In this document: piece by piece, positions 12,217 through 53,693 of the stretch
Numbering within the stretch: position 1 is the first letter of the stretch
How the letters are laid out: the number at the start of each line of letters is the position of its first letter
Virus record (IMG/VR): IMGVR_UViG_3300009068_000028
Span: 27,680-91,679 of that record
From: a virus
Strand: one strand, 5' to 3'
DNA length: 64,000 bases
Notes under the pieces: generated by a model
Told to the model about the DNA's origin: nothing
What the model saw: only the letters and a program-made list of their open reading frames with translations
The model's database searches: none
Position numbers and translations under genes: made by a program

Positions 12217-12531
12217 TTGGAAACAATGGAAGAAACAAAGACAACATTAGAACGAGTCAATGGTCTCAGTGAGATCGCTGACTTTATGAACGATGAAGAG
12301 CTTACCGAAGCCCTCACGTTTATTGCAAAGGTTATTTTCAAGCCAGAGATTCCTGCACAGGTAGCCTCTATTGAGATTGTTCGCTTGCAAGCCATTGCTG
12401 CTAAAATGTCGTTCAAGGCTACTTGGATGGCAAACGTAGATAAGGGAGATAGGGCGAAGAAGAATATTTATTTTACAGCTGCTAGTTCAATTAATGAACT
12501 TGTTGCTGCACTTAAATATATTACTCGTTAA
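12217..12531 (+). CDS. hypothetical protein in recombination operon
   Basis: About 104 aa, mostly helical and acidic at the N-terminus. The start is uncertain: TTG at 12217 has GAAGGA 11 bases upstream, while ATG at 12226 has GGAA only three bases away. A TATAAT (12196-12201) precedes the gene, so it may have its own promoter. I do not recognise it. Its place between two nucleases suggests a recombination accessory role. Confidence 0.5.
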   Translation: METMEETKTTLERVNGLSEIADFMNDEELTEALTFIAKVIFKPEIPAQVASIEIVRLQAIAAKMSFKATWMANVDKGDRAKKNIYFTAASSINELVAALKYITR

Positions 12532-12538
12532 AAACATT

Positions 12539-13342
12539 ATGGCTAAAAACTTACTAAATCAGGTTATGCTCAAAGGTGCATCAGATAAAAAGAAAACATT
12601 CTTAGATACGGACGAGCTTATCCAAAAGATTCAACATGGATATATAATTAACCGTGTTGATAAGCATCAGCAAAAGAAGACCTTTGCACCAAGCACGATT
12701 GCATTCTCTCACGGAGAGTGTCCTCGTTACTGGTACATCGCTTTTGAGGGTGCAACATTTACAGACAACGCAGATGCCTATGGTGCAGCAAACATGACTG
12801 CTGGTACAAAGTCACACGAACGTATCCAAGCAGCTATGGCAAGTGTTCCAGATCTTCTCGTTGACTCCGAGTTTAAAATCACAAGTCAGGACCCACCTAT
12901 TTTTGGTTACGGTGACGTAATCCTTAAGTGGGGTGGTGAAGATTTGCTTGGCGAAATTAAAACAATGCCAAACGAAGGATTTGAATATCGAAAAGCAGCA
13001 GGGAAGCCAAAGATTGGTCACCTAGTACAGTTGCTTATCTATATGAAAATTCTGGGGAGAGAACGTGCGGTACTAATCTATGAGAACAAGAATAACCACG
13101 AGTTGCTTGTACTTCCAGTAGTACTAAACGATTATCTTAAAGGGTGGGTAGACAACACGTTTGATTGGATGAGAGAAGTTCGTAGTGCTTGGGAGAATAA
13201 AACTCTTCCTACTAAGAACTACCGATCAAATTCAAAGATTTGCAAGACTTGTCCAGTAAGGGCAACTTGCAATATCGCTGGTCCAGGGACGCTACAAATA
13301 AAGTCTATGGAGCCAATCAATGAAGCATTGTCAATGGTGTGA
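12539..13342 (+). CDS. Cas4/RecB-family exonuclease with probable Fe-S cluster
   Basis: 267 aa from the ATG at 12539. The PD-(D/E)XK core is visible: H in TKSHERIQ, D in GYGDVIL, and E-x-K in LLGEIKTM, then a QLLIYM helix. One Cys near residue 60 (GECPRYWY) and three near the C-terminus (CKTCPVRATC) match the four-Cys iron-sulphur pattern of Cas4 and AddB nucleases. Phage Cas4-like proteins process DNA ends in recombination. No CRISPR array is in the window, so a CRISPR role is unlikely. Confidence 0.8.
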   Translation: MAKNLLNQVMLKGASDKKKTFLDTDELIQKIQHGYIINRVDKHQQKKTFAPSTIAFSHGECPRYWYIAFEGATFTDNADAYGAANMTAGTKSHERIQAAMASVPDLLVDSEFKITSQDPPIFGYGDVILKWGGEDLLGEIKTMPNEGFEYRKAAGKPKIGHLVQLLIYMKILGRERAVLIYENKNNHELLVLPVVLNDYLKGWVDNTFDWMREVRSAWENKTLPTKNYRSNSKICKTCPVRATCNIAGPGTLQIKSMEPINEALSMV

Positions 13343-13613
13343 CAGCCAGTTTAAACCAAATGTATCTTATCAAATATACTGCTCTGCTGAGTGTAGAGAA
13401 AAAGCAACAAGAGAAAAAATAGCTGAACGTTATGCTAAAAATCGTTTACAAAAGCCTTCTCGCAAAAATAGAAAATGTAAAAATTGTGGATCAACTCTTT
13501 CAATTTATAATGACGAGCCGATCTGCTCTGGATGTGACATCAATCCTTCAGAAGTAAATAAAGTATTAAAAGAGTTAAAGGGGATAGCTGATGGTAAAAT
13601 TGAGTTTGATTAA
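13320..13613 (+). CDS. double zinc-finger protein
   Basis: 97 aa with two Cys4 zinc motifs: CQWC...CSAEC at the N-terminus and CKNCGS...CSGCD after a basic linker (RLQKPSRKNRK). It overlaps the Cas4-like gene upstream and the RuvC-like gene downstream. It probably binds nucleic acid as part of the recombination module; no precise family is recognised. Confidence 0.65.
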   Translation: MKHCQWCDSQFKPNVSYQIYCSAECREKATREKIAERYAKNRLQKPSRKNRKCKNCGSTLSIYNDEPICSGCDINPSEVNKVLKELKGIADGKIEFD

Positions 13614-27103: not shown

Positions 27104-27314
27104 CTCTCTAGAACAAATGGAGACCATTGTAGAAAACAATAAGTCTCTTCTCTGGGATGGTTGGAATGTAAAAGAAATTACGCCATCACCAACTGGATGG
27201 ACAAAGCCAAGCGGCATGTTCCGTAATAACGAGTGGTTCATTCAGAAACACTACAATCTTAGATATGATGGTTGGGATATCCCCAATAAGTTTGTGGGGA
27301 ATGATGCAAAGTGA
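27093..27314 (+). CDS. hypothetical protein
   Basis: 73 aa, Trp-rich (WDGWNVKEI, WTKPSGMF, WFIQKHY). Its last bases overlap the WhiB gene. Unknown function. Confidence 0.5.
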   Translation: MKINSLEQMETIVENNKSLLWDGWNVKEITPSPTGWTKPSGMFRNNEWFIQKHYNLRYDGWDIPNKFVGNDAK

Positions 27315-27588
27315 AGAATGGAAAAAACAAGCACGATGCGAAGGTTACGACACAAACCTATTCTTCGACAAATATGAAGAAGATCTTGACCTCAGAGTGG
27401 GGATAGACAATCTTTGTGCAGGGTGTCCTGTTGCAAGACTATGTTTTGCTACTGGAGTTTCTCAAAAAGCTTGGGGAGTCTGGGGTGGGGTATATCTTGA
27501 AAACGGAAAGATCTCACGAGAATTCAATAAACACAGGTCAAAGGCTGATTGGGCTGAGACCTGGCAATCTTTAGTAACGGATAGATAA
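27301..27588 (+). CDS. whiB: WhiB-family Fe-S transcription factor
   Basis: 95 aa from the ATG at 27301. The four Cys of the WhiB iron-sulphur site are in order: ARC, LCAGC, and RLC, followed by the G[IV]WGG-type loop (KAWGVWGGVYL). WhiB proteins bind RNA polymerase sigma factor A and are restricted to actinobacteria and their phages; this is one of the strongest host clues in the window. Confidence 0.92.
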   Translation: MMQSEEWKKQARCEGYDTNLFFDKYEEDLDLRVGIDNLCAGCPVARLCFATGVSQKAWGVWGGVYLENGKISREFNKHRSKADWAETWQSLVTDR

Positions 27589-41250: not shown

Positions 41251-41769
41251 TTAGAAGTGGAAGTCCACAGGGACGAGGAACCAAAGAGTATCATTCTCGA
41301 TACGGTCTTTGTTCATATGAACAGGGTTAGTTGACCAGTTGGCAAGGTCGTAGAAGTAAGAGTTGAAATCCCAATCACCTTGAATCATACCAAGCATTCT
41401 GCCAATACCATAGAGTCGCATACTATAATCCATAGCACCGTCAAACTCGTCAAAGACACCGTCAAGATTGATGTTGCTACGATTCCATTCATCACGGTAG
41501 CGATTGAATTCCGACATTCGTGCTTCGACACAATCCTTCAGTATCAATTCGAATGCTTCACTATCTTTAGAAGAAACAATCATGTTGATTGCTCCGTCAG
41601 TGTAGGGGTCGTTGTCAGTGTTGAATCGTCCACCACCAGTTACAAACCAGTCGTACCAAGCACCACCACCATATTCGTCACCAAGAATGTCTTGGAGTCT
41701 TTCTCGAACTTGGTCAATTGCTTCTTCAGGGCTGTCTGCTTTTACTGCGATGTATTGTAGAACGTGCAT
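41251..41769 (-). CDS. hypothetical protein
   Basis: 172 aa, among the longer proteins in the array. Contains EEAIDQVRERLQDILGDEYG and a GGAWYDWFVTGGGRFN glycine/aromatic stretch. Two promoters precede it: a copy of the 29-bp array promoter and a consensus TTGACA/TAAAAT pair (41799-41827, 17-base spacer). Confidence 0.6.
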   Translation of the reverse strand: MHVLQYIAVKADSPEEAIDQVRERLQDILGDEYGGGAWYDWFVTGGGRFNTDNDPYTDGAINMIVSSKDSEAFELILKDCVEARMSEFNRYRDEWNRSNINLDGVFDEFDGAMDYSMRLYGIGRMLGMIQGDWDFNSYFYDLANWSTNPVHMNKDRIENDTLWFLVPVDFHF

Positions 41770-41798
41770 GTGTTTCCTTTTCTTTAGGGGTAGTATCT

Positions 41799-41827
41799 AT
41801 TTTACAGCATGGAGCGGTATTTGTCAA
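41799..41827 (-). promoter_or_regulatory. consensus promoter inside the array
   Basis: TTGACA (41822-41827 on minus), 17 bases, TAAAAT (41799-41804). It lies downstream of the array promoter copy at 41844, so the gene has two stacked promoters. Confidence 0.75.
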
Positions 41828-41839
41828 GTATCACACTTC

Positions 41840-41965
41840 TCACAGTATACCCTTGACCACCGACACGAAATGATCCTCGCATAGATAGCCATAGTCCTCT
41901 ACGTCTCGTTTGGTAGCAGGTTCCTTACACCAAATCATTTCACACACATAGATATATGGTTGCAT
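41840..41965 (-). CDS. very small protein
   Basis: 41 aa, ATG overlapping the upstream TAA. Two Cys and a C-terminal end that lies on top of the next gene's array promoter (GTGTCGGTGGTC). Unknown. Confidence 0.5.
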   Translation of the reverse strand: MQPYIYVCEMIWCKEPATKRDVEDYGYLCEDHFVSVVKGIL

Positions 41966-42132
41966 TATTCGTTATCCTGAATGTCAAAGTCCCACTGTGC
42001 GTGGTTCTTGTATGGTTCGAAGTCGTCTATAATCCATTCGTCCAATGCTTGATAGGCTGCATCTTCACTCTCTGCTTCAACAGGAACGAGGTACTCAATC
42101 TGCACGGTTGCTGTGATTAGATATTTACGCAT
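41965..42132 (-). CDS. small hypothetical protein
   Basis: 55 aa, ATG at 42132 overlapping the upstream stop. Pattern YLITATVQIEYLVPVEAESE then a helix and an aromatic loop. Similar in shape to the 42364-42525 and 42884-43048 proteins: a beta-hairpin, an A-x-S/D-x-x-A-A helix, an acidic tail. Confidence 0.55.
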   Translation of the reverse strand: MRKYLITATVQIEYLVPVEAESEDAAYQALDEWIIDDFEPYKNHAQWDFDIQDNE

Positions 42133-42364
42133 ACATCCTCTTATCGTTAGTTACGAATACATCTTCCGACCACGGCTTCTCGGTAATGAAATAGCCAAGA
42201 CGATTGAATTGGCGGTAGCCATTCCAAAGATTAGCATACCGTCCGTCACCATCTACCATAGTCCATACATAGCAAGGAAGAGTAGTGTCAGGGATATCCT
42301 CAAGTTCTAAAGCCAATGGGGTAGTTGGCAGATAGGTGTCTTCCCATTCGTCCCAAGTAATCAT
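42125..42364 (-). CDS. hypothetical protein
   Basis: 79 aa. Contains CYVWTMVDGDGRYANLWNGY, like the 40914-41237 protein's internal motif. ATG overlaps the upstream TAA. Unknown. Confidence 0.55.
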   Translation of the reverse strand: MITWDEWEDTYLPTTPLALELEDIPDTTLPCYVWTMVDGDGRYANLWNGYRQFNRLGYFITEKPWSEDVFVTNDKRMYA

Positions 42365-42525
42365 TACTTATCTCCAAAGTTATTGCTGTCATAAGGGTCA
42401 ATGAATGCTTCCCAGTCACCGTCAGGCATATCCTCGTGAACAAGAATTGCTTTCTCGATTGCTTCTTCTTCGCTGTTTGCTTGAATCCAGTAAGTCGCCT
42501 GGTATTCTACTTGATATACTTTCAC
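42364..42525 (-). CDS. small hypothetical protein (GTG start)
   Basis: 53 aa from GTG at 42525 (an ATG two bases upstream is followed at once by TGA). Starts VKVYQVEYQATYWIQANSEE, then EAIEKA helix and acidic tail; resembles the neighbouring small proteins. GAGGAG is upstream. Confidence 0.5.
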   Translation of the reverse strand: MKVYQVEYQATYWIQANSEEEAIEKAILVHEDMPDGDWEAFIDPYDSNNFGDK

Positions 42526-42526
42526 A

Positions 42527-42667
42527 TTACTCCTCGTCCATAAATTTGATAAACACTTCTACTAACTGTAATGCTATTATACCAGTGAGGTACGACATAG
42601 AACTCATACTCTTGAATTCCTGAATCTTATCTAGAATCTGTTGCTTGGCTTCTTCTCGTTCACTCAT
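42527..42667 (-). CDS. small protein with a hydrophobic stretch
   Basis: 46 aa. Helical N-terminus (EEAKQQILDKIQEFKS) then MSYLTGIIALQLVEVFI, possibly membrane-associated. Ends in GDEE-like acidic tail. Unknown. Confidence 0.45.
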   Translation of the reverse strand: MSEREEAKQQILDKIQEFKSMSSMSYLTGIIALQLVEVFIKFMDEE

Positions 42668-42894
42668 AGGGACACCTCACCGTATTGGTCATAGTTCTCG
42701 GCAAGGCTTTCGTCTTCCCAATCTGAATTGAGATGCCACTTGGTTGCTTCGTTATTGAAAAGATTGACAAGCATATTCTCAGCCTCGTCGTCAAAGTGAC
42801 CAGTATCCCAATCACTGAATCCAACTACAGCAAACTTGATTTGGGCAGGGTATTTGATATGGTCATAGATATAAACCATTACCTTAGTTGTCAT
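42664..42894 (-). CDS. hypothetical protein
   Basis: 76 aa, ATG at 42894 with GAGGAGGA upstream. Alpha/beta (VMVYIYDHIKYPAQIKFAVVG) with an acidic C-terminus. Overlaps the neighbours. Unknown. Confidence 0.55.
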   Translation of the reverse strand: MTTKVMVYIYDHIKYPAQIKFAVVGFSDWDTGHFDDEAENMLVNLFNNEATKWHLNSDWEDESLAENYDQYGEVSL

Positions 42895-43048
42895 CTTCGT
42901 CCTCCTCAATCTCTTCTACCTCAACCTCGTACACACCGTCATAGTTTAGATTGTCGTAGTGATAACCAATCTCCTCTGCCTTTGCCTGACTGTCTGCTTC
43001 AATCGTGCCAGTAAAGGTGACTAGGGTTTTTACATAATACTGAGCCAT
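42884..43048 (-). CDS. small hypothetical protein
   Basis: 54 aa: AQYYVKTLVTFTGTIEADSQ, AKAEEI helix, then a very acidic tail (EVEVEEIEEDEDD). First gene of a seven-gene operon running from the array promoter at 43078-43106. Unknown. Confidence 0.55.
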   Translation of the reverse strand: MAQYYVKTLVTFTGTIEADSQAKAEEIGYHYDNLNYDGVYEVEVEEIEEDEDDN

Positions 43049-43256
43049 TGGGCTACCTTTCTTTTTGGGTTACCTCTATTATATCGTTGACCACCGACAT
43101 CAAACTGGGTAAATTCGGGAGAATTCGTAATGAGTTCGTAATGATTCGATAATTACTGTTTGTTTATTATGTCAGCAGCCCGAGCTGCCTGTGGATAAGT
43201 CTGTGGAGATCCCCCAAAGGGGGAGGCAGTTTATACTGTTGCCCAGCAGTTACGGA

Positions 43257-44279
43257 TTATACTCCCAGCATTACGGAAGCGACTACACGAGCCAAGCGGT
43301 TCTTCTCTGCGTTGAGAGCAGGGTCAAGTCCACTAGCACCAGCGAGAATGTTCTCGTTGTTTCCGCCACGAGCGGTGCGATACCAGTCAAGGCGTTCCGT
43401 CAAGGCGTTGAGAGTACCCCAAGCCGTTCCAGTAATTGTGTTGTTGTATTGCCCAACATAAATGTCGTTGATAAGGTCAATCTTGTCGTTGTGCTTCTTG
43501 AAAGAACCTTTGGCATCTTTTTCTGGGGCAGGGTAAGCAAGAGAAACAATCTTGTCAAACTCTGCTTTAGTAACTTCAGTTTCAATCATAGCGTTAGCCA
43601 TAACAGAAAACTCGTCAAGGTAAGTCTGTGCCAAGCCAAGTGCTTCACGAGCAACCTGAACACGACCCTCTGCCGTCTGCGTGTGACGGATTTTGAACGA
43701 CTGCTTTACCTTACGGTTAGAACCAATACCGCCACCCAAAGCAAGGTTGAGAGTGTTAGCACACACAACACGGACAGGCGTGATACTTGCCATAATGGAG
43801 ATAGAGCCATCGTGAGATGTGTTGATAAGCAGGTAGTTCTCTACCTTGTCAGCACGACCATTGGGGTCAAGCACAATGTCGTTGTCAAGAGCGAGAGAGC
43901 CAAAAACTACACGACCACCCTTGATTGAACCAGCAGTCTCCCAACGACCACCACCGTCAAGCAGGTTGTCACCAAAGGTGAACAGGTCTTCGTTTTGGAG
44001 AGTGTGGTAGCGTTCACCCACAACGCCAAGCACATCATTCTGTGACTTGTCGAATGGGTTGGTACGACAAACAAAATAGTTTGTCTTGTCAGATACATAA
44101 CCTTCTGGGAACGAGAGTTCCTCAAGACGAACATTCCAGTTGTCAAGGTGAGCCAACTTGAGCATTTCGTCTGTGGTAACTTCGTCTTCAAAGACAGTCC
44201 CAAGTTTGTGCCAAGCAGGTTCTCGCAATGAAGCAAAAGCCACTTCGCCGTTAGCACCGATTTCTAATTCGTGAGCCAA
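43257..44279 (-). CDS. DUF932 (LGT_TIGR03299-like) protein
   Basis: 340 aa, TTG at 44279 with AAAGGAA ten bases upstream. The DUF932 pattern includes EPAWHKLGT, NYFVCRTNPFD, LGVVGERYH, GGGRWETAGS, VVCANTLNLAL and KIRHTQ. This phage/plasmid family is of unknown function, sometimes near DNA-modification genes. It is by far the largest protein in the leftward array. Confidence 0.8.
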   Translation of the reverse strand: MAHELEIGANGEVAFASLREPAWHKLGTVFEDEVTTDEMLKLAHLDNWNVRLEELSFPEGYVSDKTNYFVCRTNPFDKSQNDVLGVVGERYHTLQNEDLFTFGDNLLDGGGRWETAGSIKGGRVVFGSLALDNDIVLDPNGRADKVENYLLINTSHDGSISIMASITPVRVVCANTLNLALGGGIGSNRKVKQSFKIRHTQTAEGRVQVAREALGLAQTYLDEFSVMANAMIETEVTKAEFDKIVSLAYPAPEKDAKGSFKKHNDKIDLINDIYVGQYNNTITGTAWGTLNALTERLDWYRTARGGNNENILAGASGLDPALNAEKNRLARVVASVMLGV

Positions 44280-44429
44280 TGTATTTCCTTTCGTTGTTGT
44301 TGATAATCTAATTATACACCTGACCACGGACATCTAACTATTCTGGGGAACATTCTGGGAGGTTCGTAACCTAAACGTAATAACTATGTTAGGACATGGC
44401 GGCTCGGGGATCCCAGCTGACAAAACAAA

Positions 44430-44587
44430 AATCCCCTGCTACCAGCAATCTATCCAGACGCTTCGCAGGGGACTTATGTATGGAAGTTTATTTCAATTAG
44501 ACGGCTTCTCATTCCACCGTAGCCCTAGTCTAACCTAGACGGTTATCATCTACACACCGACAAACTCACCCCATATTTCAGGGGAAG
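44430..44587 (-). ncRNA. non-coding RNA segment after tRNA-Asp
   Basis: About 160 bases with no reading frame follow tRNA-Asp. They contain hairpins CCCCTGAAATATGGGG, GTCTA-GGT-TAGAC and ACGG...CCGT enclosing GAATGAGAAG. They end in a terminator (CCCCTGC/GCAGGGG, 44431-44473, then TTTTTG). The AATGAGAAGCC motif recalls the guide-proximal part of TnpB-type omega RNAs, but no TnpB is present. Confidence 0.4.
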
Positions 44588-44659
44588 CGACCTCATAGGG
44601 ACTCGAACCCTAACCTCTACCTCGACAGGGTAGCGTGATAACCTTTTCACTATGAAGCC
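44588..44659 (-). tRNA. tRNA-Asp (anticodon GTC)
   Basis: Acceptor GGCTTCA/TGAGGTC, D arm GTGA/TCAC, anticodon stem CTACC/GGTAG with loop CTGTCGA, T arm TAGGG-TTCGAGT-CCCTA, discriminator G. The only tRNA on the minus strand, co-oriented with the leftward array. Confidence 0.9.
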
Positions 44660-44718
44660 AATGTTTCTCTGTGTAGTTATAGATTGGGCAGTTTAGACTG
44701 TTACCCAGCAGTTGCTCG

Positions 44719-45177
44719 TTAGAGGAGTTCCATCACCGTGTTGTAGGTGCTGGCATTGACTTCCTCTTGGTTGGTCATTTTGAGAACTTTGAGGTTCTTT
44801 TTGAGCAAGTCCAACTTGGTGGTGTATTCACGACCATAGTGCTGACGGTCATTAGGGTTGGTGGGCTGTTCTGGTGCTTGGGGCAGAGCAAGCAAGTCAG
44901 TATTGACCTGAATGTTTACGCCATAACCACCATAACGGTTTCCAGCACTAACACGAACAAGAGCGTTGGTGTCATACTCGCCACCAATGTTGTCAGGGTT
45001 CTTGATTGCCTCAACAACAGCATTGAGAACCAACTCTTGGTGTGCCTTGTATGCCTGACGGTATGCTTCCATATCGGCAGGGTATGTAGCCATCTCTGCC
45101 TCAATCTTGGCAATAGTAGCCTCAACATCAGCAATCAGAGTAGCGGTTGGGATTTTCACGGAGAGTGAACGAGCCAT
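44719..45177 (-). CDS. hypothetical helical protein
   Basis: 152 aa. Helical halves (ADVEATIAKIEAEMATY and TKLDLLKKNLKVLKM) around a Gly/Tyr-rich loop (GNRYGGYGVNI). AAAGGAC-type RBS, a degenerate array promoter at 45210-45239. Unknown; likely an oligomeric helical protein. Confidence 0.6.
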   Translation of the reverse strand: MARSLSVKIPTATLIADVEATIAKIEAEMATYPADMEAYRQAYKAHQELVLNAVVEAIKNPDNIGGEYDTNALVRVSAGNRYGGYGVNIQVNTDLLALPQAPEQPTNPNDRQHYGREYTTKLDLLKKNLKVLKMTNQEEVNASTYNTVMELL

Positions 45178-45294
45178 TGGTTTAGTCCTTTCGTTTGGCT
45201 TATATCTATATTATATCATTGGGGTATGACATATAACTATTGAGTTAGGTGGGCAGTTTGACTTGATACCCAGCAAGCAGACTAGGGTCTGACC

Positions 45295-45447
45295 TTAGTT
45301 GCTGGAAACCGTAGTCCAGCGAGGCTGTCCTGCGACATCAAGACGAACACGGAACGAACCGTTTGCGTTCTTGACAACTTCCTGAACGATACCAGAAACG
45401 CCAGACTTCTGCGTGGTGAACGACTGACCGATTTCGATTTGCGACAT
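45295..45447 (-). CDS. small SH3-like protein
   Basis: 50 aa from ATG at 45447 after AAGGA. Sequence IGQSFTTQKSGVSGIVQEVV, then SFRVRLDVAG, resembles a small beta-barrel (KOW/SH3-like). A consensus promoter (TTGACA 45526-45531, TATAAT 45503-45508, 17 spacer) drives it. Confidence 0.55.
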   Translation of the reverse strand: MSQIEIGQSFTTQKSGVSGIVQEVVKNANGSFRVRLDVAGQPRWTTVSSN

Positions 45448-45502
45448 TGTGTACCTTGCTTCCTTGTAGTGAGCCAACTGTTTTGTTTGCTTCGTTATTA
45501 CC

Positions 45503-45531
45503 ATTATACAGGAAAGGAAAGAGTTTGTCAA
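45503..45531 (-). promoter_or_regulatory. consensus promoter inside the array
   Basis: TTGACA (45526-45531), 17 bases, TATAAT (45503-45508). A copy of the array promoter also lies 70 bases upstream (45599-45627). Confidence 0.75.
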
Positions 45532-45788
45532 GTCTTTTTCTCAACTTTTTTATTTTTTTTGTGGGGACTTCCGACTTCGTTTCCCTGCCTGTAATACAAG
45601 TATACCAACGACCACCGACATATAACTAATCGTTTCGGGGGATTTTTGTAACAGTTCGTAACCTGTTTGTCATAACATAGGCGGCTCGGGGATCCGCAGG
45701 GCATAGAGAAAGGACAGTTTATAAAGGACATGTCCAGGTCCTCGTCCAGTGCAGGGGAAAGGACAAACAATACCCTGCAGCTGGGAGC

Positions 45789-46178
45789 CTAACTCTCTTC
45801 GATTTCTCCTACATCGAATGACTGGACACAGAAATCTTCTACGTCTGTGTTGTAGCAATCAAGGTTGAGTTCCCCAACTTCGAAATGTTCAATGTCAAAG
45901 TCAGCAGGGACTAACATTGTTGCTTCAACAGTCAACGGAATCGTGACGGTAATCTCACGAAGGAGCGAGATACCAAGTACGTCAGCAACAGAATTCGCTA
46001 CTGTCTGAACGTCAATGTCCTCAGCAATTGCTTCCAAGAGAATCAATCGGATGTTCTCGTTTTCCTCGTTACGACGGATAGACATACCAAGATTATCTTG
46101 ATTGAGACCTGTAGCCTGTGCTTCCAAGTCTTTGATGTACTCATTCATTTTGCTAAGTACTGGGTGATTGTTTTCCAT
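45789..46178 (-). CDS. hypothetical acidic protein
   Basis: 129 aa, acidic C-terminus with FDIEHFEVGELNLDCYNTD. Second gene after the 46178-46438 ORF, coupled by TAATG. Unknown. Confidence 0.6.
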   Translation of the reverse strand: MENNHPVLSKMNEYIKDLEAQATGLNQDNLGMSIRRNEENENIRLILLEAIAEDIDVQTVANSVADVLGISLLREITVTIPLTVEATMLVPADFDIEHFEVGELNLDCYNTDVEDFCVQSFDVGEIEES

Positions 46179-46438
46179 TAGTTGTCCTCTGCTTCTTGTG
46201 CGATACCGTTGAGTTCGTCAATTGTCTGTGTGAGTACCTGAAAGTCCTCTTCCGACAAAAGTAGTTGTGACATTGCGTGTGCCATAAGTCCTGTGATTGT
46301 CTGCCCGAAAATGTTGAGAGCAATCCGACGGTCTTCATCGGTTTCTGCGAACAGTACCATACCAGACGCAGTCTGTGTCATTACATCCTGCGAAACATCT
46401 TCGGCAACCTGCCGTAGTCCAAATGCTATGTCAATCAT
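46178..46438 (-). CDS. hypothetical protein
   Basis: 86 aa, helical (FGLRQVAEDVSQDVMTQTAS). Its array promoter copy lies at 46466-46494, overlapping the end of the upstream gene. Unknown. Confidence 0.6.
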   Translation of the reverse strand: MIDIAFGLRQVAEDVSQDVMTQTASGMVLFAETDEDRRIALNIFGQTITGLMAHAMSQLLLSEEDFQVLTQTIDELNGIAQEAEDN

Positions 46439-46487
46439 TCTTTGTCCTCTCGTTGTTGTATTACCATTATACCGTTCACCACGGACA

Positions 46488-46916
46488 TCAAACTATGTCC
46501 ATTAGTTTGCCATTGACTAATACCTGTGGTCGTTCAGGGTAGTGGCGTACCCAACCATAGTCCTCAAAGGTGAAACGGATACCATACACCTCATAAATAA
46601 ATGAACGTGCCTGTCCAGAGATATCTATGAATTTGTCAAGGGTAGACAAATCGAAATTCGGAATGTCACCCTGTTCAGAGTAGTCACCAATAACAACTAC
46701 CCTGTCACCAGTCCAACGACCAATGAAGTCTGCCATTACCTCTGCCCAGAAATCTCCACCACCACGCATAGGTGAGCAAGTGGTGAGGACATACATCATA
46801 TCCGAAAGTGATGCCTCGTGACCTGTGTGTTCACGTTGCTTCGCACCCAGACCAATGTCGTGAGGGTGAATGACTTCTTGCTTGTCAAGGTTGTAAATGC
46901 TGTGGTATTGTCCCAT
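46488..46916 (-). CDS. conserved-type hypothetical protein
   Basis: 142 aa, starts MGQYHSIYNLDKQEVIHPHD, a beginning that recurs in actinophage hypothetical proteins. Contains a GRWTGDRVVVIGDYSEQ strand-turn-strand and aromatic C-terminus. Array promoter at 46946-46974. Unknown activity. Confidence 0.65.
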   Translation of the reverse strand: MGQYHSIYNLDKQEVIHPHDIGLGAKQREHTGHEASLSDMMYVLTTCSPMRGGGDFWAEVMADFIGRWTGDRVVVIGDYSEQGDIPNFDLSTLDKFIDISGQARSFIYEVYGIRFTFEDYGWVRHYPERPQVLVNGKLMDIV

Positions 46917-47044
46917 TGTGTGTCCTTTTCTTTGTCTGTCTTATAAGTATACCCCAGACCACGGACATGAAACTCTGGGAATCTGGATAGTTAGTCGTAA
47001 TTCTTAATAACGTTTAGGTAACGAAGCGGCTCGGGATCCCCTAC

Positions 47045-47212
47045 CTACCTCACATATTTCTTATCGAGAACATCATAGATATATGCGTTAGGATAAGTAA
47101 CCTTGACAGAAAGTAGGAATCGCATAGCAGCTTCTTCATTACGGAATGTAGCGAGTTTACTCTCTTTACCCTCGCCAGCCCACACCTGATATTTGAGTAC
47201 ATAGTCAGTCAT
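47045..47212 (-). CDS. small hypothetical protein
   Basis: 55 aa, starts DYVLKYQVWAGEGKESKLAT; another of the small beta-helix proteins (with an A-A-M-R helix). Coupled by TAATG to the next gene. Unknown. Confidence 0.5.
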   Translation of the reverse strand: MTDYVLKYQVWAGEGKESKLATFRNEEAAMRFLLSVKVTYPNAYIYDVLDKKYVR

Positions 47213-47307
47213 TAGTAGTTCTCTCCGAATATATCAAGTATAGCGGATACCTGTTCATCTGTCAACCTGTCAACAACTTTCCAGTCGATTACGTTTTCCC
47301 AGTCCAT
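47212..47307 (-). CDS. very small protein
   Basis: 31 aa, one helix (DRLTDEQVSAILDIFG). It is supported by coupled stop/start codons on both sides. Confidence 0.45.
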   Translation of the reverse strand: MDWENVIDWKVVDRLTDEQVSAILDIFGENY

Positions 47308-47591
47308 TAGCAATCACCCTCTACGTCCTCAAAGATAAATGCGTCAAGACGGTGTTGGTCAACAAAAGTACCTGCGTCAACATACGGACTGTCCTTGTAA
47401 GTGACTCCGTGTGGCAATTCGATTACTTCATCATAGTCCCCTGCCGATACTGCCACAACGGCGGCAACGGCAGACTGTACCATAAACTGCGGAATTGGGG
47501 GGTAGCAATTCGATGAAAAGTGAATACTGATAGCGTCCTCTAAAGAGAGGTGAGCGTCAGTAGCGAGAGAGTAAGCGGTTGAGTATCCCAT
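47307..47591 (-). CDS. hypothetical protein
   Basis: 94 aa, Pro/Tyr-containing loop (NCYPPIPQFM), hydrophobic helix (VQSAVAAVVAVSAG) and acidic C-terminus (EDVEGDC). Array promoter variant at 47616-47644. Unknown. Confidence 0.55.
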   Translation of the reverse strand: MGYSTAYSLATDAHLSLEDAISIHFSSNCYPPIPQFMVQSAVAAVVAVSAGDYDEVIELPHGVTYKDSPYVDAGTFVDQHRLDAFIFEDVEGDC

Positions 47592-47637
47592 TAGTGTCCT
47601 TTGTTCGATAGTCTAATTATACAGGGTAGGTCTGACA

Positions 47638-47916
47638 TCAAACTAATGTGTAAGTCCAAATTTCTGTTTCGTTGGCACAGTCCCAGATAGCCTTTTGTAC
47701 GAATTGGATAGCCAATTTTCCAGCGGTATCCAAGTCAGCCACCCAAACACTACGGTCACAAAACACTTCATCAGTTTCAGGATTAGTCCACACTCCAACA
47801 TATTGTCCGTCAAGTGTATCGTCAAGGGTAGTTTCACCAATAGCCACCCAATAGCCAGTCTTGGCGTGAGAGAGAATGAAAGTGTCATTCAGTTTGAGGT
47901 AAGTACCGTCTTTCAT
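47638..47916 (-). CDS. hypothetical protein
   Basis: 92 aa, ATG at 47916 after AAAGGACA. Beta-rich (TYLKLNDTFILSHAKTGYWV, GQYVGVWTNPETD). Array promoter at 47944-47972. Unknown. Confidence 0.55.
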   Translation of the reverse strand: MKDGTYLKLNDTFILSHAKTGYWVAIGETTLDDTLDGQYVGVWTNPETDEVFCDRSVWVADLDTAGKLAIQFVQKAIWDCANETEIWTYTLV

Positions 47917-48043
47917 AGTGTGTCCTTTCGTTGTCATACTATCATTATACCAAGTACCACCGACATGAAACTCTGGGATTTCGGGAAACATATCGTAAGG
48001 TTAGTAATGAGTTTGTTATGACAAATGGGCTCGGGCGACCCTG

Positions 48044-48595
48044 CTAGATAGCAGAGCCTCTCACGACAATCCAAATCAGAGCCTGTGCGGTGCGAGGTGT
48101 CAAACCAAACTCACCAGCAACCTTGCGAACGGCGTTAGCGATAGCGTGATACTGTCCCTGCGTAGGGCTGTCCGTAGGCATTTCGGCTGCTCTCATCATC
48201 CATACATCGACAACCACAGCGTCAGTATCGCCAAAGATAGCACGAGCGAATGCGTTAGTTTTGAGACCTTTGAGACCGTCAATGCCTTCGTTCAGCACAT
48301 CATTAGCCATTTTAGTGTTGTTTTTGAGACCATTCACGTGGTATCCAAGCGAGAATGCGACTGCCTTAGTGATGTTGCTTGCCCAACGCTCACGTGGGGA
48401 GAATGCGGAGACAACGCCAGCACCAATCTCAAGCGAGGCATTGAGGTTATTGGCAACCTGCTGTGCGACTTCCTGTGCTTCGTGATACCAGACACTAGCC
48501 TGTTCGACCTGTCCAAGTGTCGCCTTGAGAATGAGGTTACGGAACAAATCCGTAGCAGTAGCGGTTACGATTTCGTTTGCGGTGAGAGTAGTCAT
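48044..48595 (-). CDS. conserved-type helical DNA-associated protein
   Basis: 183 aa, ATG at 48595. The conserved stretch GAGVVSAFSPRERWASNITK and TDAVVVDVWMMRAAEMPTD resembles a phage family with a helix-hairpin-helix glycosylase-like shape. DNA binding is suggested, not shown. Array promoter at 48626-48654 and a GGCTCGGG box upstream. Confidence 0.55.
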   Translation of the reverse strand: MTTLTANEIVTATATDLFRNLILKATLGQVEQASVWYHEAQEVAQQVANNLNASLEIGAGVVSAFSPRERWASNITKAVAFSLGYHVNGLKNNTKMANDVLNEGIDGLKGLKTNAFARAIFGDTDAVVVDVWMMRAAEMPTDSPTQGQYHAIANAVRKVAGEFGLTPRTAQALIWIVVRGSAI

Positions 48596-48735
48596 TACTT
48601 TGTCCTTTACTTTGTTGATAGTTCTATTATACATCTGACCACCGACATATAACTAGGAAAAAATCCAGGGGAATCTTAAAGTGTTTCGTAACTAAATTGC
48701 CCGATCCAGATCAGCTCGGGACCTGTGGATAACTT

Positions 48736-48804
48736 TTAGTCGTTAAACCACGCCAGGAATATGATTAGTATCCCCAGCGTGGCAACGATTACAAACTCAA
48801 TCAT
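48736..48804 (-). CDS. transmembrane peptide
   Basis: 22 aa, IEFVIVATLGILIIFLAW: a single hydrophobic helix. Its ATG overlaps the previous stop. Such short membrane peptides can be toxins or inhibitors, but that is speculation. Confidence 0.4.
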   Translation of the reverse strand: MIEFVIVATLGILIIFLAWFND

Positions 48805-48979
48805 TCTCTACGCCATTCCAACAAGCAGAGATAAAACGGTCAGCAATAAATCGTTTGTTGTCCTGTGCCATCAGTCCAGCAAAATCGTGAATGAGAATAT
48901 CGAATGTCTGCTCATCTATTTTGAGAGCGTAGGTGTTCAGCAATTCTGAAACGGCTACATAGTCTTTGCGTGTCATCAT
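48797..48979 (-). CDS. hypothetical protein
   Basis: 60 aa from ATG at 48979 (TAATG coupled). Helical (DYVAVSELLNTYALKIDEQT). Unknown. Confidence 0.5.
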   Translation of the reverse strand: MMTRKDYVAVSELLNTYALKIDEQTFDILIHDFAGLMAQDNKRFIADRFISACWNGVEND

Positions 48980-49176
48980 TAGGATACACTCACCCAAGCC
49001 ATAGCGGTACGCAAAAGGTGGTTGTAGTCACCAGACATACTCTCTTTGAGATATTCGTCAATTTCCTCTTTGGAAACTTCTGCGTTACGGAGAGCCTTCT
49101 GAACAGCACCCATAATTGCGTAGGCGTTGCCGTCTTGCCCAATGAGTTCGACTTCGATTTCTGGATACTTTGTCAT
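48979..49176 (-). CDS. hypothetical protein
   Basis: 65 aa. Strand-helix pattern IEVELIGQDGNAYAIMGAVQ, and a helical C-terminal. Coupled by TAATG. Unknown. Confidence 0.5.
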   Translation of the reverse strand: MTKYPEIEVELIGQDGNAYAIMGAVQKALRNAEVSKEEIDEYLKESMSGDYNHLLRTAMAWVSVS

Positions 49177-49358
49177 TAGTTTTCTTCCTTTTCGTTTGCT
49201 TTTTGTTCTGCCAATTCGAGCATACGGTTTCGTTCTTTTTCCGTGAGCATAGCCCAAGCGTATCCAAACGCATAGGCGTAAGCCATATCACTTTGTCCGT
49301 TGTTTGCCTTTTTGAGATTGGCGATTACTTCATTTGAGCGGTTGATGTTACTTGTCAT
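49176..49358 (-). CDS. hypothetical protein
   Basis: 60 aa, helical with a Tyr-rich turn (AYAYAFGYAWAML). First gene of the four-gene operon behind the array promoter at 49383-49411. Unknown. Confidence 0.5.
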   Translation of the reverse strand: MTSNINRSNEVIANLKKANNGQSDMAYAYAFGYAWAMLTEKERNRMLELAEQKANEKEEN

Positions 49359-49409
49359 TTCTTGTCCTTTGTTCGTATTACTATTATAACCTAGACCACC
49401 GACATCAAA

Positions 49410-49574
49410 CTATTCGTTTTCACGAATGGCTTGTGTCTTGATTGCCTTGCGAGTACGCAAACGATTTGGTCGATTGTCGTGAGTGCCAGCCGCCGATGAA
49501 CGACGGATTTCACGCATAGCCTCAATATAGGGCTTGTTCTCAATACCTTTGTGAGTTGGGTTCTTTTTCTTCAT
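49410..49574 (-). CDS. small basic protein (leaderless)
   Basis: 54 aa, Lys/Arg-rich (MKKKNPTHKGIENK; NRPNRLRTRKAIKTQ), probably nucleic-acid binding. The ATG lies six bases after the -10 of its array promoter (49581-49609), so it is leaderless, unlike most array genes. Confidence 0.5.
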   Translation of the reverse strand: MKKKNPTHKGIENKPYIEAMREIRRSSAAGTHDNRPNRLRTRKAIKTQAIRENE

Positions 49575-49702
49575 AGTCTTATTATACATCAGACCACGGA
49601 CACCAAACTGGGATTTTTGGGGAAAACGCAATAATGTTCTTAATTACGCAAGAAATCTGCGTGGCTCGGGGATCCTGTGGATAACCTCTGGGGATAACTC
49701 CC

Positions 49703-49849
49703 CTAGCAGGGAGCGATATCCTCATTTGGCACAATAGCAACGGTATCCGTTCCAAGCACCAGAATGTGCGACCATTCATCGCTCTGGAAAATCAACTCGG
49801 CACGACGGATATCCTCGTGGTCAGTACCAATGTAGTTTACGAATGTCAT
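49703..49849 (-). CDS. small acidic protein
   Basis: 48 aa, RRAELIFQSDEWSHILVLG. Array promoter at 49877-49905. Unknown. Confidence 0.45.
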   Translation of the reverse strand: MTFVNYIGTDHEDIRRAELIFQSDEWSHILVLGTDTVAIVPNEDIAPC

Positions 49850-49900
49850 TTTTTTGTCCTTTTCTTTGTTAGTCTAATTATACTGCCTAGCACCGACATA

Positions 49901-50074
49901 TTACTCTGCGTTGCTCCCATAAAACTGGACTCCGAATCCGCATACGGTACAGTCTGCCCAAATTATCTCAGAGTCACCAAGGCGTTTAGGCTGTTGGTCA
50001 AGGTCTTCAGTGAATAACGTTCCCCTGTCGCAGATATAGCATTCTGCCTCATAGGTTATGACTCGCTTGCTCAC
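49901..50074 (-). CDS. zinc-ribbon protein (GTG start)
   Basis: 57 aa with CYICD and CTVCGFG zinc pairs. GTG at 50074 overlaps the previous TGA. One of several tiny zinc-ribbon proteins of the array; a protein-binding role is likely, not shown. Confidence 0.55.
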   Translation of the reverse strand: MSKRVITYEAECYICDRGTLFTEDLDQQPKRLGDSEIIWADCTVCGFGVQFYGSNAE

Positions 50075-50241
50075 GCTACCTCCGACAATTCGTCTGCGGA
50101 TACAGAGACATTACCGATGATAACGCCTATCGCACCCATGTTCACTAATTCGTTTGCCACAAAGTATCGGCATTCGAACGGAACATTATAGGCGATAAAC
50201 TTACCGTCTCCGTAGTTTGCTGTAATCTTGACCATCTTCAT
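50071..50241 (-). CDS. small hypothetical protein
   Basis: 56 aa, beta-rich (KMVKITANYGDGKFIAYNV). ATG 50241 after AAAGGACAG. Array promoter at 50265-50293. It resembles the 51903-52034 protein (V-N-M-G-A/F-E-M-G-A pattern near the C-terminus), suggesting duplication. Confidence 0.5.
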   Translation of the reverse strand: MKMVKITANYGDGKFIAYNVPFECRYFVANELVNMGAIGVIIGNVSVSADELSEVA

Positions 50242-50291
50242 ATTTCTGTCCTTTTCTTTCTCTAAGTATAACATCAACCACCGACACATAA

Positions 50292-50441
50292 CTAGCCAGC
50301 GAAGTCCCAAGGGGAGACATCAAACTCCCAAACGCTCCAAGTGTCAGGCAATTGCCTAGCACAGCCTTCACAGGCTGCCTGAGAGATATTTCCCTGAGTA
50401 ACTCCAACGGTGGCGAGGTTGTCGCAGAATTCACATTCCAT
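50292..50441 (-). CDS. zinc-finger protein
   Basis: 49 aa with CEFC near the N-terminus and CEGC about 20 residues later. Array promoter at 50466-50494. Unknown partner. Confidence 0.55.
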   Translation of the reverse strand: MECEFCDNLATVGVTQGNISQAACEGCARQLPDTWSVWEFDVSPWDFAG

Positions 50442-50565
50442 ATTTTTTGTCCTTTCCTTTCTCTAATTATAACACTGACCACGGACACCAAACTATCTGG
50501 ATTCAGGAAAATTATCCACAGCCACGTAATTGCCCTGTGGATAAGTCGGCTCGGGCTCCGCAAAA

Positions 50566-50624
50566 ATCTTGCGTGGGGAGAGATTTATTTGCTCTTGCGA
50601 GGCTCACTCTCTCCCCTGCGAGAT
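50566..50624 (-). terminator. long hairpin with conserved TTATTTGCTC loop
   Basis: An 8 + 9 base-pair stem with a single bulge (50566-50583 with 50608-50624) encloses TTTATTTGCTC...GAGGCTCAC. Read leftward it is followed by TTTTTG, so it acts as a terminator for the gene at 50624-50851. The loop recurs elsewhere (see findings). Confidence 0.6.
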
Positions 50625-50851
50625 TAGACTACATAACGCTTGTGGATTTCCATAGCGTCACGAGCGATAAGCGTAGTCCAGCCTTTGGGAGACTCGTCGA
50701 TTGCGACAGCGTAGGCAACATAAGGCTCGTTAGCCTCAATGCCAAACTGCTTACGGTAAGGTGTGCCAACATAAATTGACTCCACCTGCTTGACTTCGCC
50801 AACATATTTGTTGTCGTGAGACTGAATTGTGTATCCGATTAGTTCTTTCAT
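50624..50851 (-). CDS. hypothetical protein
   Basis: 75 aa. Beta-rich (VGEVKQVESIYVGTPYRKQF, YVAYAVAIDESPKGW). Array promoter at 50879-50907; terminator just downstream. Unknown. Confidence 0.55.
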   Translation of the reverse strand: MKELIGYTIQSHDNKYVGEVKQVESIYVGTPYRKQFGIEANEPYVAYAVAIDESPKGWTTLIARDAMEIHKRYVV

Positions 50852-50905
50852 TTTTTTCCTTTTCTTTCTTGTATTACAATTATACTGCCGACCACCGACA
50901 TATAA

Positions 50906-51067
50906 CTATGCCCAAATATCTAAGAGGTTTTGGTAAGTGACCATTCGTGCGTAGTGAAAGGTTTCCATAACCTTATCGCCTCGCTCAATTGCGTCTGCCA
51001 TATCCTTTTCGTTGTCAGCGATAAATCCAACAATCATAGCGGTTGGGAGAGTGATTTCGTTTTTCAT
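50906..51067 (-). CDS. hypothetical protein
   Basis: 53 aa, helical (KDMADAIERGDKVMETFHYA). Its stop lies on the upstream promoter copy of the next gene. Array promoter at 51092-51119. Unknown. Confidence 0.5.
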   Translation of the reverse strand: MKNEITLPTAMIVGFIADNEKDMADAIERGDKVMETFHYARMVTYQNLLDIWA

Positions 51068-51209
51068 AGTTTGTCCTTTGTTCATACCTTCATTATACAG
51101 TCGAGCACCGACATGAAACCCATCAATTCAGGGGAAACGCAACTATCTTCATAAAGACGCAATAAACTTGTGCCGCCCGAGCCCAGGGTATGTCAGGACA
51201 AAATCCTCC

Positions 51210-51395
51210 CTAGAACCAATCTTCTTCAGTAGTAGACACACCAAGAATTCCGCCTGGCAAATAGAATGGGCGAGCATCCTGGTGACAGAAGAGGCAACGC
51301 TGAAAGCCATCAGCATATTGGAAAATCTGGGAAGTCTTTTCCCAGCAGTTGTGACAGGTGTGGACAGGGCGAGAGAATTCATCAAATGTGTTCAT
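51210..51395 (-). CDS. zinc-finger protein (leaderless)
   Basis: 61 aa, ATG at 51395 six bases from the TATAAT of its array promoter. CHNC and CLFCH give one zinc site. Unknown partner; the second leaderless array gene. Confidence 0.55.
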   Translation of the reverse strand: MNTFDEFSRPVHTCHNCWEKTSQIFQYADGFQRCLFCHQDARPFYLPGGILGVSTTEEDWF

Positions 51396-51512
51396 ACACA
51401 CATTATACCAAAGACCACGGACACGTAACTCTGTGGATTCAGGAAAAAGGATCTTAATTACGTAAAGAGTTTGCTTGATCCAAAATGCCCGAGCCAGCCT
51501 GTGGATAACTTT

Positions 51513-51560
51513 GGGGCTAGGTTTATTTGCTGTGGATAAGTACAGGCTCACCCTAGCCCC
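51513..51560 (-). repeat. hairpin with conserved TTATTTGCTG loop
   Basis: GGGGCTAGG (51513-51521) pairs with CCTAGCCCC (51552-51560). The enclosed loop carries the TTTATTTGCTG...AGGCTCAC variant of the array hairpin and a TTATCCACA site (51531-51539). No U-run follows, so its role as a terminator is uncertain. Confidence 0.5.
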
Positions 51561-51569
51561 TGTGGATAA

Positions 51570-51845
51570 CTATGCCTTGTTTTCTTTGCCACCGTTTTGG
51601 ATACGGACAAGCGTACGGTCTACGATTTTGGAAACCAAACGCTTGGGGCTACGGTAAATTTCACTAGCCTTTGGGTAGACAATGGTGTAGGAAGCCCAAC
51701 CGACAGCATAATCGGTACGAGCGATATCCTTTTCCACGTCTTCACGGAAAGCGAGAAATTCGCCAAGCGTATTGGCAACGTGGACAACGGTCTTACCGTC
51801 CCAACGGCGTACGAGGTGGAATTCGATTTCTGGAATGCTTTTCAT
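51570..51845 (-). CDS. hypothetical protein
   Basis: 91 aa, VVHVANTLGEFLAFREDVEK, Arg/Lys-rich C-terminus (RSPKRLVSKIVDRTLVRI). Array promoter at 51879-51907. Unknown. Confidence 0.55.
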   Translation of the reverse strand: MKSIPEIEFHLVRRWDGKTVVHVANTLGEFLAFREDVEKDIARTDYAVGWASYTIVYPKASEIYRSPKRLVSKIVDRTLVRIQNGGKENKA

Positions 51846-51902
51846 TTTTGTCCTTTTCTTGTTTTTGTTTATATCTAAATTATACCAGCGACCACGGACA
51901 CG

Positions 51903-52034
51903 TTACTCGTGGTGGACGGTGACAGCGAGTGCTCCCATTTCGAACATAGTTTCGACTGTGACATCTACCATCCAAGGGTCTACTAAAACGCTTACGTTTT
52001 TTGGGTTGGTGGCGAAGATTGCTTTGATTTCCAT
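51903..52034 (-). CDS. small hypothetical protein
   Basis: 43 aa. Its stop overlaps the array promoter below it. Similar ending to the 50071-50241 protein. Array promoter at 52060-52088. Unknown. Confidence 0.5.
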   Translation of the reverse strand: MEIKAIFATNPKNVSVLVDPWMVDVTVETMFEMGALAVTVHHE

Positions 52035-52212
52035 TTTTCTGTCCTTTGCTTATATTCATATTTTACCACGGAGCACGGACACGTAACCCTAGAATCCAGG
52101 AAAATTCAGGGGAATTTCGTAACAATTCGTAACTTAGTTGCTAACAGCCTGTGGATAACTTGCTCGGGCTGCCTGTGGATAACTTTTTGGGGGTGTGGAT
52201 AAGTCGATCTGG

Positions 52213-52308
52213 CTACTGTTCCAAATAACAGGCTAGACAAATCTCATAGGCAATAAATCCTAGAGTGTCTTCATCAATTTTTCGTCCACAGTCATTACAC
52301 TTAGTCAC
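52213..52308 (-). CDS. mini zinc-ribbon protein (GTG start)
   Basis: 31 aa with CNDC and CLAC, so just enough for one zinc site. It is translated right after the upstream gene (4 bases). Unknown. Confidence 0.45.
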   Translation of the reverse strand: MTKCNDCGRKIDEDTLGFIAYEICLACYLEQ

Positions 52309-52311
52309 AGT

Positions 52312-52494
52312 CTATCGCTTCATCAGTTGGCGAGTGAGTGAGAGTGCTTCCTCAAAATCGTGATTTGTGAACACATTACCCTGAGCCAATTTCACCAGAG
52401 CGTTTAGGCGTAGTGCTTTTTGCTTAGGTGTGAGAGCGTTGATGTTGATGTCCTCAACTTCGTTGATGTCAATTTCGATTTCTAATTCGTTCAC
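52312..52494 (-). CDS. hypothetical acidic protein
   Basis: 60 aa: acidic N-terminus (ELEIEIDINEVEDINI), then a basic helix (TPKQKALRLNALVKLAQG). Array promoter at 52522-52550. Unknown. Confidence 0.5.
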   Translation of the reverse strand: MNELEIEIDINEVEDININALTPKQKALRLNALVKLAQGNVFTNHDFEEALSLTRQLMKR

Positions 52495-52548
52495 TTGATT
52501 TTCCTTTTCTTGATTACTTACAGTATGACAGAGAGCACGGACATGAAA

Positions 52549-52725
52549 CTACATGCCCAGAGTCTGGCGAGCAACCAGAGTGATTTCCTCATCTGAGAAT
52601 TCTGTTTGGGTAGCCAACAGAGCGTTGTAGTTTTGGGTATCACGGTAGACAGCGTTTCCGTAGTCAGAGAATACCGATGTGATGGCTGAAATCTTAGCCT
52701 GTACCAATTCTTCTTTTGTAGTCAT
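52549..52725 (-). CDS. hypothetical protein
   Basis: 58 aa, helical (TKEELVQAKISAITSVFSDY). ATG at 52725. Array promoter at 52759-52787. Unknown. Confidence 0.5.
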   Translation of the reverse strand: MTTKEELVQAKISAITSVFSDYGNAVYRDTQNYNALLATQTEFSDEEITLVARQTLGM

Positions 52726-52931
52726 ATTTTCTATCCTTTTCTTTTTCTTTATATCCACATTCTAACATCGACCACGGACATGAAACTATCCAGATAGGCG
52801 AATATCTGCCTATTGTTACGTTTTGTTACCATTCTGTTATAAATCTGGGGAATCTATATATAGTACGTAAATGTCTATGCTGCCACTACATCTAGCCCGA
52901 GCCCTGTGGATAACTTGTACCCAACTACTCC

Positions 52932-53033
52932 CTACTGAAACGCAGGGAGATAGCCAACAGAGCCAGAGCAGTGGCACTCAGTCCAGATACCTTGGCAGTC
53001 TGAGCAGTGATACACATAGTCTTGATTTTTCAT
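52932..53033 (-). CDS. mini zinc-binding protein
   Basis: 33 aa, four Cys and two His (HCSDC and ECHCSG). First gene of the leftward array after the promoter at 53149-53177. A 120-base leader holds two copies of the TTATTTGCTC hairpin element. Confidence 0.5.
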   Translation of the reverse strand: MKNQDYVYHCSDCQGIWTECHCSGSVGYLPAFQ

Positions 53034-53047
53034 TTTTGTCCTTATCT

Positions 53048-53129
53048 GAAACCGTGAGATTTATTTGCTCTGAGAGGCTCATACCCTTTGGGTCTTATTT
53101 GCTCTGAGAGGCTCACTCTCTGCGGTTTC
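53048..53129 (-). repeat. tandem TTATTTGCTC hairpin element in a leader
   Basis: GAAACCG (53048-53054) pairs with CGGTTTC (53123-53129), with inner GAGA/TCTC. Two direct copies of TTATTTGCTCTGAGAGGCTC lie between (about 53060-53082 and 53094-53116). It sits between the promoter and the ATG of the first array gene, as an attenuator or protein-binding leader would. Confidence 0.5.
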
Positions 53130-53373
53130 TCTGTTTGTTTATATTATCAGTATAGCCGTGACCACCGACACCAAACTATCAAAAACAGGCTATTTGCAAT
53201 GTATTTGCGTGAAATCAGGGGAATGTTGCGTAAGGTCATAAAACACGCAAGATTATTGCGTTTGGCTCGGGCATTTTTGTTCATCTATTGTTTACCTAAA
53301 TAGGCACGGTATCAGTAGTTATATGTCTGTGCTCAATGTTAGTATGAATACATACAAAGAAAGAAGAAATCAA

Positions 53374-53523
53374 ATGGAAATTCAAATCATAACAGAAACA
53401 AAGGCAATCTATATGCCATTCGCTCCAGTAAACAAATTGTCTGCTGACGAATATAACGAAATGCGAAAAATGCTTGCTGAAGCAGAAGCATTAGGCGTTA
53501 TCCGTGATTGGTCAATCTACTAG
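53374..53523 (+). CDS. small protein from forward array promoter
   Basis: 49 aa, ATG at 53374. The promoter is the forward copy of the array motif at 53317-53345. Helical C-terminal half (DEYNEMRKMLAEAEALGVIR). It faces the leftward array and so marks its right boundary. Unknown. Confidence 0.5.
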   Translation: MEIQIITETKAIYMPFAPVNKLSADEYNEMRKMLAEAEALGVIRDWSIY

Positions 53524-53576
53524 TTAGATGTCAGACCTATCTGCCATACTGATTACATACAAACAAAGGACAAAGA

Positions 53577-53693
53577 ATGACTAACACACAACGTCTCCGT
53601 TACTTGGAACTCATCGCTATCGCTAAGAGTGATGTGATGACGGCTAGTGAGTTCGATGAACTGCTAGGTCTCCAGAAACTTATCAAGCGATAG
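53577..53693 (+). CDS. small helical protein from forward array promoter
   Basis: 38 aa, start AAAGGACAAAGAATG, the same RBS as the leftward array. Helical (TQRLRYLELIAIAKSDVMTA). Promoter copy at 53522-53550. Unknown. Confidence 0.5.
   Translation: MTNTQRLRYLELIAIAKSDVMTASEFDELLGLQKLIKR

Follow-up and report, generated by a model that had tools for sequence, protein, structure and literature searches.

Mycobacteria possess a DNA-damage promoter that is independent of LexA and RecA, with the published form tTGTCRgtg, then 8 nt, then TAnnnT (PMC5656591). Named RecA-NDp, this promoter is also present in other actinobacteria (PMC8223512). Its reader is PafBC, a heterodimer of WYL-domain proteins in which PafB sits on the -26 element and PafC on domain 4 of sigma A, and single-stranded DNA (ssDNA) is the switch that turns the complex on (PMC11804915). 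Repeated sites of one orientation are also known for the repressors of cluster A mycobacteriophages (PMC9283540). The SAS repeats of cluster K mycobacteriophages lie 3-7 bp from start codons and have a proposed role in translation initiation. Finally, in lytic phages such as SPO1 and T4, numerous small early operons are each served by a strong promoter; these promoters are close to the host consensus or depend on a phage activator, MotA being an example.

Here, we describe a promoter array in a phage whose sequence was analyzed over a window of 64,000 bases, which occupies positions 27680-91679 of a virus record 91,679 bases long; all coordinates of the phage refer to the window. Judged from sequence, the array is quite likely to be a phage regulon of host DNA-damage promoters, read by host PafBC with sigma A. 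Literature searches confined to open-licence papers found no reports of PafBC promoters in phages.

Copies, geometry, and associated genes

A pattern search with GTCSGTGGTC-N5-TATAMT, allowing up to three mismatches, gave 21 leftward matches between 41844 and 53169, against a chance expectation of 0.98 (sd 1.0), and none of 100 shuffles reached 21. The pattern had no match outside the array in the rest of the 91.7-kb record, and its reversed form, which served as a control, gave zero matches. A weight matrix made from the 21 matches was then used for a rescan, yielding a total of 26 copies: 21 strong copies on the minus strand, three weaker ones on the same strand (42576, 45210, and 47616), and two on the plus strand (53324 and 53529). 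The lowest-scoring true copy reached 12.1, while the single above-cut-off match in eight Markov-shuffled control genomes scored 10.0. A chance origin of the array is ruled out by the shuffles and the reversed patterns. An earlier note on this DNA had counted 25 promoters, with the two right-most copies reversed, and was essentially right on both points; its estimate of about 40 tiny genes comes down to approximately 33.

The 29-base geometry that the note had described is kept in every one of the 26 copies, as is the 8-nt distance from core to -10, and the -10 reads CATACT in two of them. The block extends to the consensus AGTTnnaTGTCSGTGGTCnnnnnTATAATnnnAnTA, in which the A located 7 nt past the -10 is invariant among the strong copies (21/21) and preceded by T in 17; this A looks like the transcription start site. 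At the R position of the core, C is found in 10 of the 21 strong copies and G in the others (TGTC[C/G]GTG). Conservation of the AGTT block, which lies 7 nt upstream of TGTC, is a feature of this array that host promoters and the majority of other viruses lack. In a sigma-70 scan, not one array copy passed and no canonical -35 was found at the PafBC-type copies, which supports the earlier reading that TTGACA is absent and that the GTCSGTGG block stands in its place. Three near-perfect canonical sigma-A promoters were nevertheless found on the minus strand within the array, consisting of TTGACA-N17 followed by TATAAT (45531-45503), TATACT (47265-47237), or TAAAAT (41827-41799), such that the phage should be able to use ordinary promoters as well.

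At 16 strong copies out of 21, a ribosome site and start codon lie 17-27 nt past the presumed start site; at another two strong copies, the start-site A is the A of an ATG. The earlier proposal that one repeated promoter drives the array is supported. From right to left on the minus strand, pattern and matrix together identify PafBC-type promoters at 53149-53170 (TGTCGGTGGTCACGGCTATACT), 52759-52780 (-10 TAGAAT; gene start 27 nt past the predicted start site), 52522-52543 (-10 CATACT; GTG start 21 nt downstream), 52060-52081 (-10 TAAAAT; start 19 nt downstream), 51879-51900 (27 nt), and 51092-51113 (18 nt). The two copies with a predicted +1 on the ATG, recognized by the pattern and from the sequence itself, are at 51402-51423 and 49581-49602, and would produce leaderless transcripts of the genes at 51210-51395 and 49410-49574, respectively. 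Copies at 50466-50487 (start 18 nt downstream) and 50265-50286 (17 nt) come from the pattern. For a further group, the pattern is joined by evidence from orthologues: 50879-50900 (start 21 nt downstream; orthologues in five relatives retain the motif), 49877-49898 (21 nt), 49383-49404 (18 nt), 48626-48647 (24 nt), 47944-47965 (21 nt), 46946-46967 (23 nt), 46466-46487 (21 nt), 44311-44332 (25 nt), and 43078-43099 (23 nt). The penultimate copy in this group is the promoter of the DUF932-family gene at 43257-44279 (minus strand; family search), and the motif is present at normal distance at the orthologues in seven of eight relatives. Finally, the pattern and the sigma-70 scan together describe two places where an ordinary promoter follows a PafBC-type one. 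The copy at 45599-45620 has the perfect TTGACA-N17-TATAAT of 45531-45503 downstream, and the left-most copy, 41844-41865, which is without the AGTT block, is followed by the TTGACA-N17-TAAAAT of 41827-41799. The two plus-strand copies, both found by the matrix, are TGTCTGTGCTCAATGTTAGTAT at 53324-53345, ahead of the gene at 53374-53523, and TGTCAGACCTATCTGCCATACT at 53529-53550, ahead of the gene at 53577-53693.

A second promoter class, TGTCAGACC (or TGTC[A/G]TACC) followed by 7 nt and TATAAT, was seen in the same arrays and in at least 120 IMG/VR stretches. Its copies in the window comprise the rightward one at 53529-53550 and the three weaker leftward copies returned by the matrix: 47616-47637, 18 nt ahead of the gene start at 47591; 45210-45231 (TGTCATACC), 26 nt ahead of the gene at 44719-45177; and 42576-42597 (TGTCGTACC), about 44 nt ahead of the gene start at 42525. 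The class is kept at orthologous genes of relatives, in five relatives for the 45210 copy. The published RecA-NDp consensus does not account for it.

The array covers approximately 33 tiny genes on the minus strand (41251-53033), mostly of 30-180 aa, nearly all of which lack a family of known function; family searches returned almost no known families, with DUF932 as the main exception. DUF932 is also found in early or terminal regions of Streptomyces phages, and both DUF932 and GP88 occur in the arrays of other viruses. DUF932 also lies in the left-end small-gene region of Streptomyces phage Jay2Jay, and GP88 in the right-end one of mycobacteriophage Trixie. This placement suggests that the tiny array genes may be early or host-takeover genes, and early timing of their expression is plausible. 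Segments of the forms CTGTGGATAA, GCTCGGGCT, and TTATTTGCTC recur at operon ends, at approximately 50500-50620, 51490-51570, 52140-52230, 52890-52960, and 53060-53120. A terminator scan did no better than shuffles.

The motif in host chromosomes and in other viruses

The phage layout, TGTCSGTG, GTCnnnnn, and TATAAT, has the published RecA-NDp geometry. RecA-NDp/P1 promoters of the PafBC regulon are alike in the TGTC[A/G]GTG core, the 8 nt, TAnnnT, the absent -35, and a start at an A about 7 nt past the -10 that is at times leaderless. The phage differs in having 26 copies in 12 kb, ahead of tiny genes without known function, and in its upstream AGTT block and its use of C or G for the R position.

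Searched against 84,980 species genomes, the strict phage-type motif was found in 20 stretches, six of them actinobacterial. All six lie about 30 nt ahead of a gene start, and the encoded proteins are DUF222/13E12-like or WYL-like by eye. A looser motif gave more than 100 sites in 54 of 247 Actinomycetia genomes, versus a single site for the reversed control, and the genes behind it include recA, uvrB, uvrA, dnaE, polA, and mfd as assigned with NCBIfam, together with a weaker, SbcD-like assignment. A set of 24 small Actinomycetia genomes (1.2-1.8 Mb; fetched loci of 38-63% G+C) represents the likely host type, chosen without a tie to the phage. In 18 of these 24 small, low-GC genomes the motif is present upstream of recA (control, 0), and GTCRGTG-N8-TACCTT, searched over whole small genomes, occurs at 17 places, 16 of them at recA. 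The motifs found in this set have a weaker -10 (TACCTT) and are nearly confined to recA. In two small low-GC actinobacteria (L377 and L381), the recA upstream region contains two PafBC-type motifs in tandem. WYL proteins are encoded by all 24 small genomes of this candidate host type, mostly as adjacent pairs. One such pair (L411) was matched to the PafB and PafC subunits in the solved RNA polymerase complex and is followed by tatC, the order known from the paf locus.

Strict matches are few per small candidate-host genome, as compared to 26 sites per phage genome, and this imbalance would suit a sink, whereby PafBC sites on replicating phage DNA pull PafBC-polymerase off host repair genes and tiny-gene expression is secondary. 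We regard a sink as improbable, given that the copies stand at a fixed, tight distance ahead of ribosome sites and starts, and possess the intact -10s and +1 A of real promoters.

In IMG/VR, TGTCAGTGG-N7-TATAAT and TGTCGGTGG-N7-TATAAT each gave at least 120 matches, and the reversed pattern gave 38, all of them single. Among the matches listed, loci with at least three same-strand sites numbered 24, 66, and 49 in three forward sets, which overlap in contigs, and the control had none. Most of the 105 loci with at least four sites have few and distant proteins in common with this phage, among the matches listed, and single linkage via shared genes joins 103 of the 105. Spacing after TGTCNGTGG in the fetched virus loci was N7 in 499 cases and N8 in one, with zero for all others from 3 to 12, a count that is biased because the loci had been fetched by the N7 (8-nt) pattern itself. 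A ribosome site and start follow 409 of 567 viral sites, nearly all at 20-34 nt past the -10, while 199 of 1701 control positions have them, in a flat spread. In close relatives, the motif is found ahead of 65 of 80 orthologous genes, and the letters of the spacer drift. The R position is A or G in most other viral arrays.

A TTGACA-like -35 (5-6 of 6 positions) stands at 17-18 nt in approximately 14% of viral copies, and at these copies an activator might be dispensable. TTGACA, or a near match, combined with TGTCRGTGG at a spacer of 17-18 was observed in virus contig L011 (55% G+C) and at about 77 virus sites. These -35-bearing copies, the TGTCAGACC class, the AGTT block, and the use of C at the R position indicate that the copies need not all work alike.

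Good -35s in some viral copies would also suit an operator, that is, a stoperator-like or dispersed site for a phage repressor over ordinary sigma-A promoters, and one-orientation repressor repeats are known from cluster A mycobacteriophages (PMC9283540). Against such an operator stand the fixed 8-nt distance to the -10, the missing -35 in most copies, and the role of the same element as an activator site in the host; moreover, none of the scanned proteins belongs to a family of repressors or integrases. We consider it improbable.

The probable reader and the proposed mechanism

The phage encodes a WhiB-like protein (27265-27588, plus strand; family search), a mark of actinobacterial phages, and its polymerase and terminase are nearest to those of Streptomyces phages, with 56% and 52% identity, respectively. 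On these grounds, the virus is classed as an actinobacterial phage. A RecA-like recombinase is also encoded (10739-11749, plus strand; family search). Searches with the WYL profile detected no PafB/C-type protein in the record of this phage or in 22 more records with arrays, and scans of most of the phage's other proteins turned up no family of sigma factors, repressors, or integrases. With no WYL protein found in these records, host PafBC is the simplest reader, and is probably the reader of the array promoters.

The earlier note had instead suggested a phage factor. Members of the WhiB family can bind region 4 of sigma A, WhiB is present in 11 of 23 array records, and this phage also encodes small HTH-like proteins; moreover, the host consensus includes neither the AGTT block nor the TGTCAGACC class. 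A WhiB-like or small HTH protein could accordingly be imagined to read the block, in which case the PafBC likeness would be mimicry or shared site ancestry only. We think this unlikely. The same block and 8-nt spacing occur at host recA and uvr promoters, which PafBC is known to read, and a phage activator would have no need to keep host geometry in more than 100 diverse loci. In addition, the small HTH proteins are similar to HNH/DNA-binding families of phages. The phage factor of the earlier note is therefore unsupported, as the promoter type is that of host PafBC and the array phages have no detectable PafB/C-type protein.

Under the preferred reading, each copy would be a promoter for sigma A that lacks a usable -35. 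PafB of the host PafB-PafC heterodimer would bind TGTCSGTG, the -26 element located 8 nt ahead of TATAAT, and PafC would then hold sigma A by its region 4, a step termed "sigma adaptation". Resident PafBC, constitutively present, would be switched on by ssDNA arising from phage DNA entry or replication, or from breakage of host DNA. As a result, some 25 operons would fire together, with small protein products that probably act in host takeover.

Taken more broadly, we lean somewhat towards the idea that a large group of actinophages has placed a small-gene, probably early, programme under the host ssDNA sensor PafBC, whereby damage or ssDNA made by infection times expression and the repair alarm becomes the trigger for takeover. 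PafBC is known as a mycobacterial DNA-repair switch; if phages drive whole gene arrays with it, phage and host also contend over this pathway. Hosts would then be unable to drop PafBC without loss of repair, and damage or ssDNA would serve a lytic phage as a timing signal. This idea offers a testable function for a conserved and unexplained tiny-gene region of actinophages, and would supply natural PafBC-type promoters for laboratory use.

Comparison with named phages

Megablast of the array against isolated phages gave no match. The motif is absent from BillNye, searched with the exact consensus over the whole record, and from the regions of Jay2Jay and Trixie that were read.

The SAS/ESAS of cluster K mycobacteriophages are alike in being short, non-palindromic, one-orientation repeats ahead of small non-structural genes. 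An identity with SAS was rejected, since SAS is a GGGATAGGAGCCC repeat at 3-7 bp from starts, whereas the phage repeat has a different sequence and stands at promoter distance. The early operon sets of SPO1 and T4 resemble the array in having many small operons with their own promoters, and differ by not using a host DNA-damage activator.

The left end of Jay2Jay, a Streptomyces phage (Stanwilliamsviridae), is comparable: its tiny genes run leftward, and a promoter of fixed geometry is repeated along the row. It has a DUF932 gene in common with the array, and its phage family has a related polymerase and terminase. Bases 1-13500 of Jay2Jay contain 12 leftward TTGNNN-N17-TAGAST promoters ahead of tiny genes, with spacing of 17 in 12 cases and 18 in two. 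The view of the earlier note that the layout is not a standard one thus fails for the arrangement, and holds for the promoters, as those of Jay2Jay are of the ordinary sigma-A type and the PafBC-type motif is absent in the region read. A matching region with ordinary promoters indicates an exchange of promoter class within a shared layout: the array has its layout in common with a known phage, and its promoter class is new.
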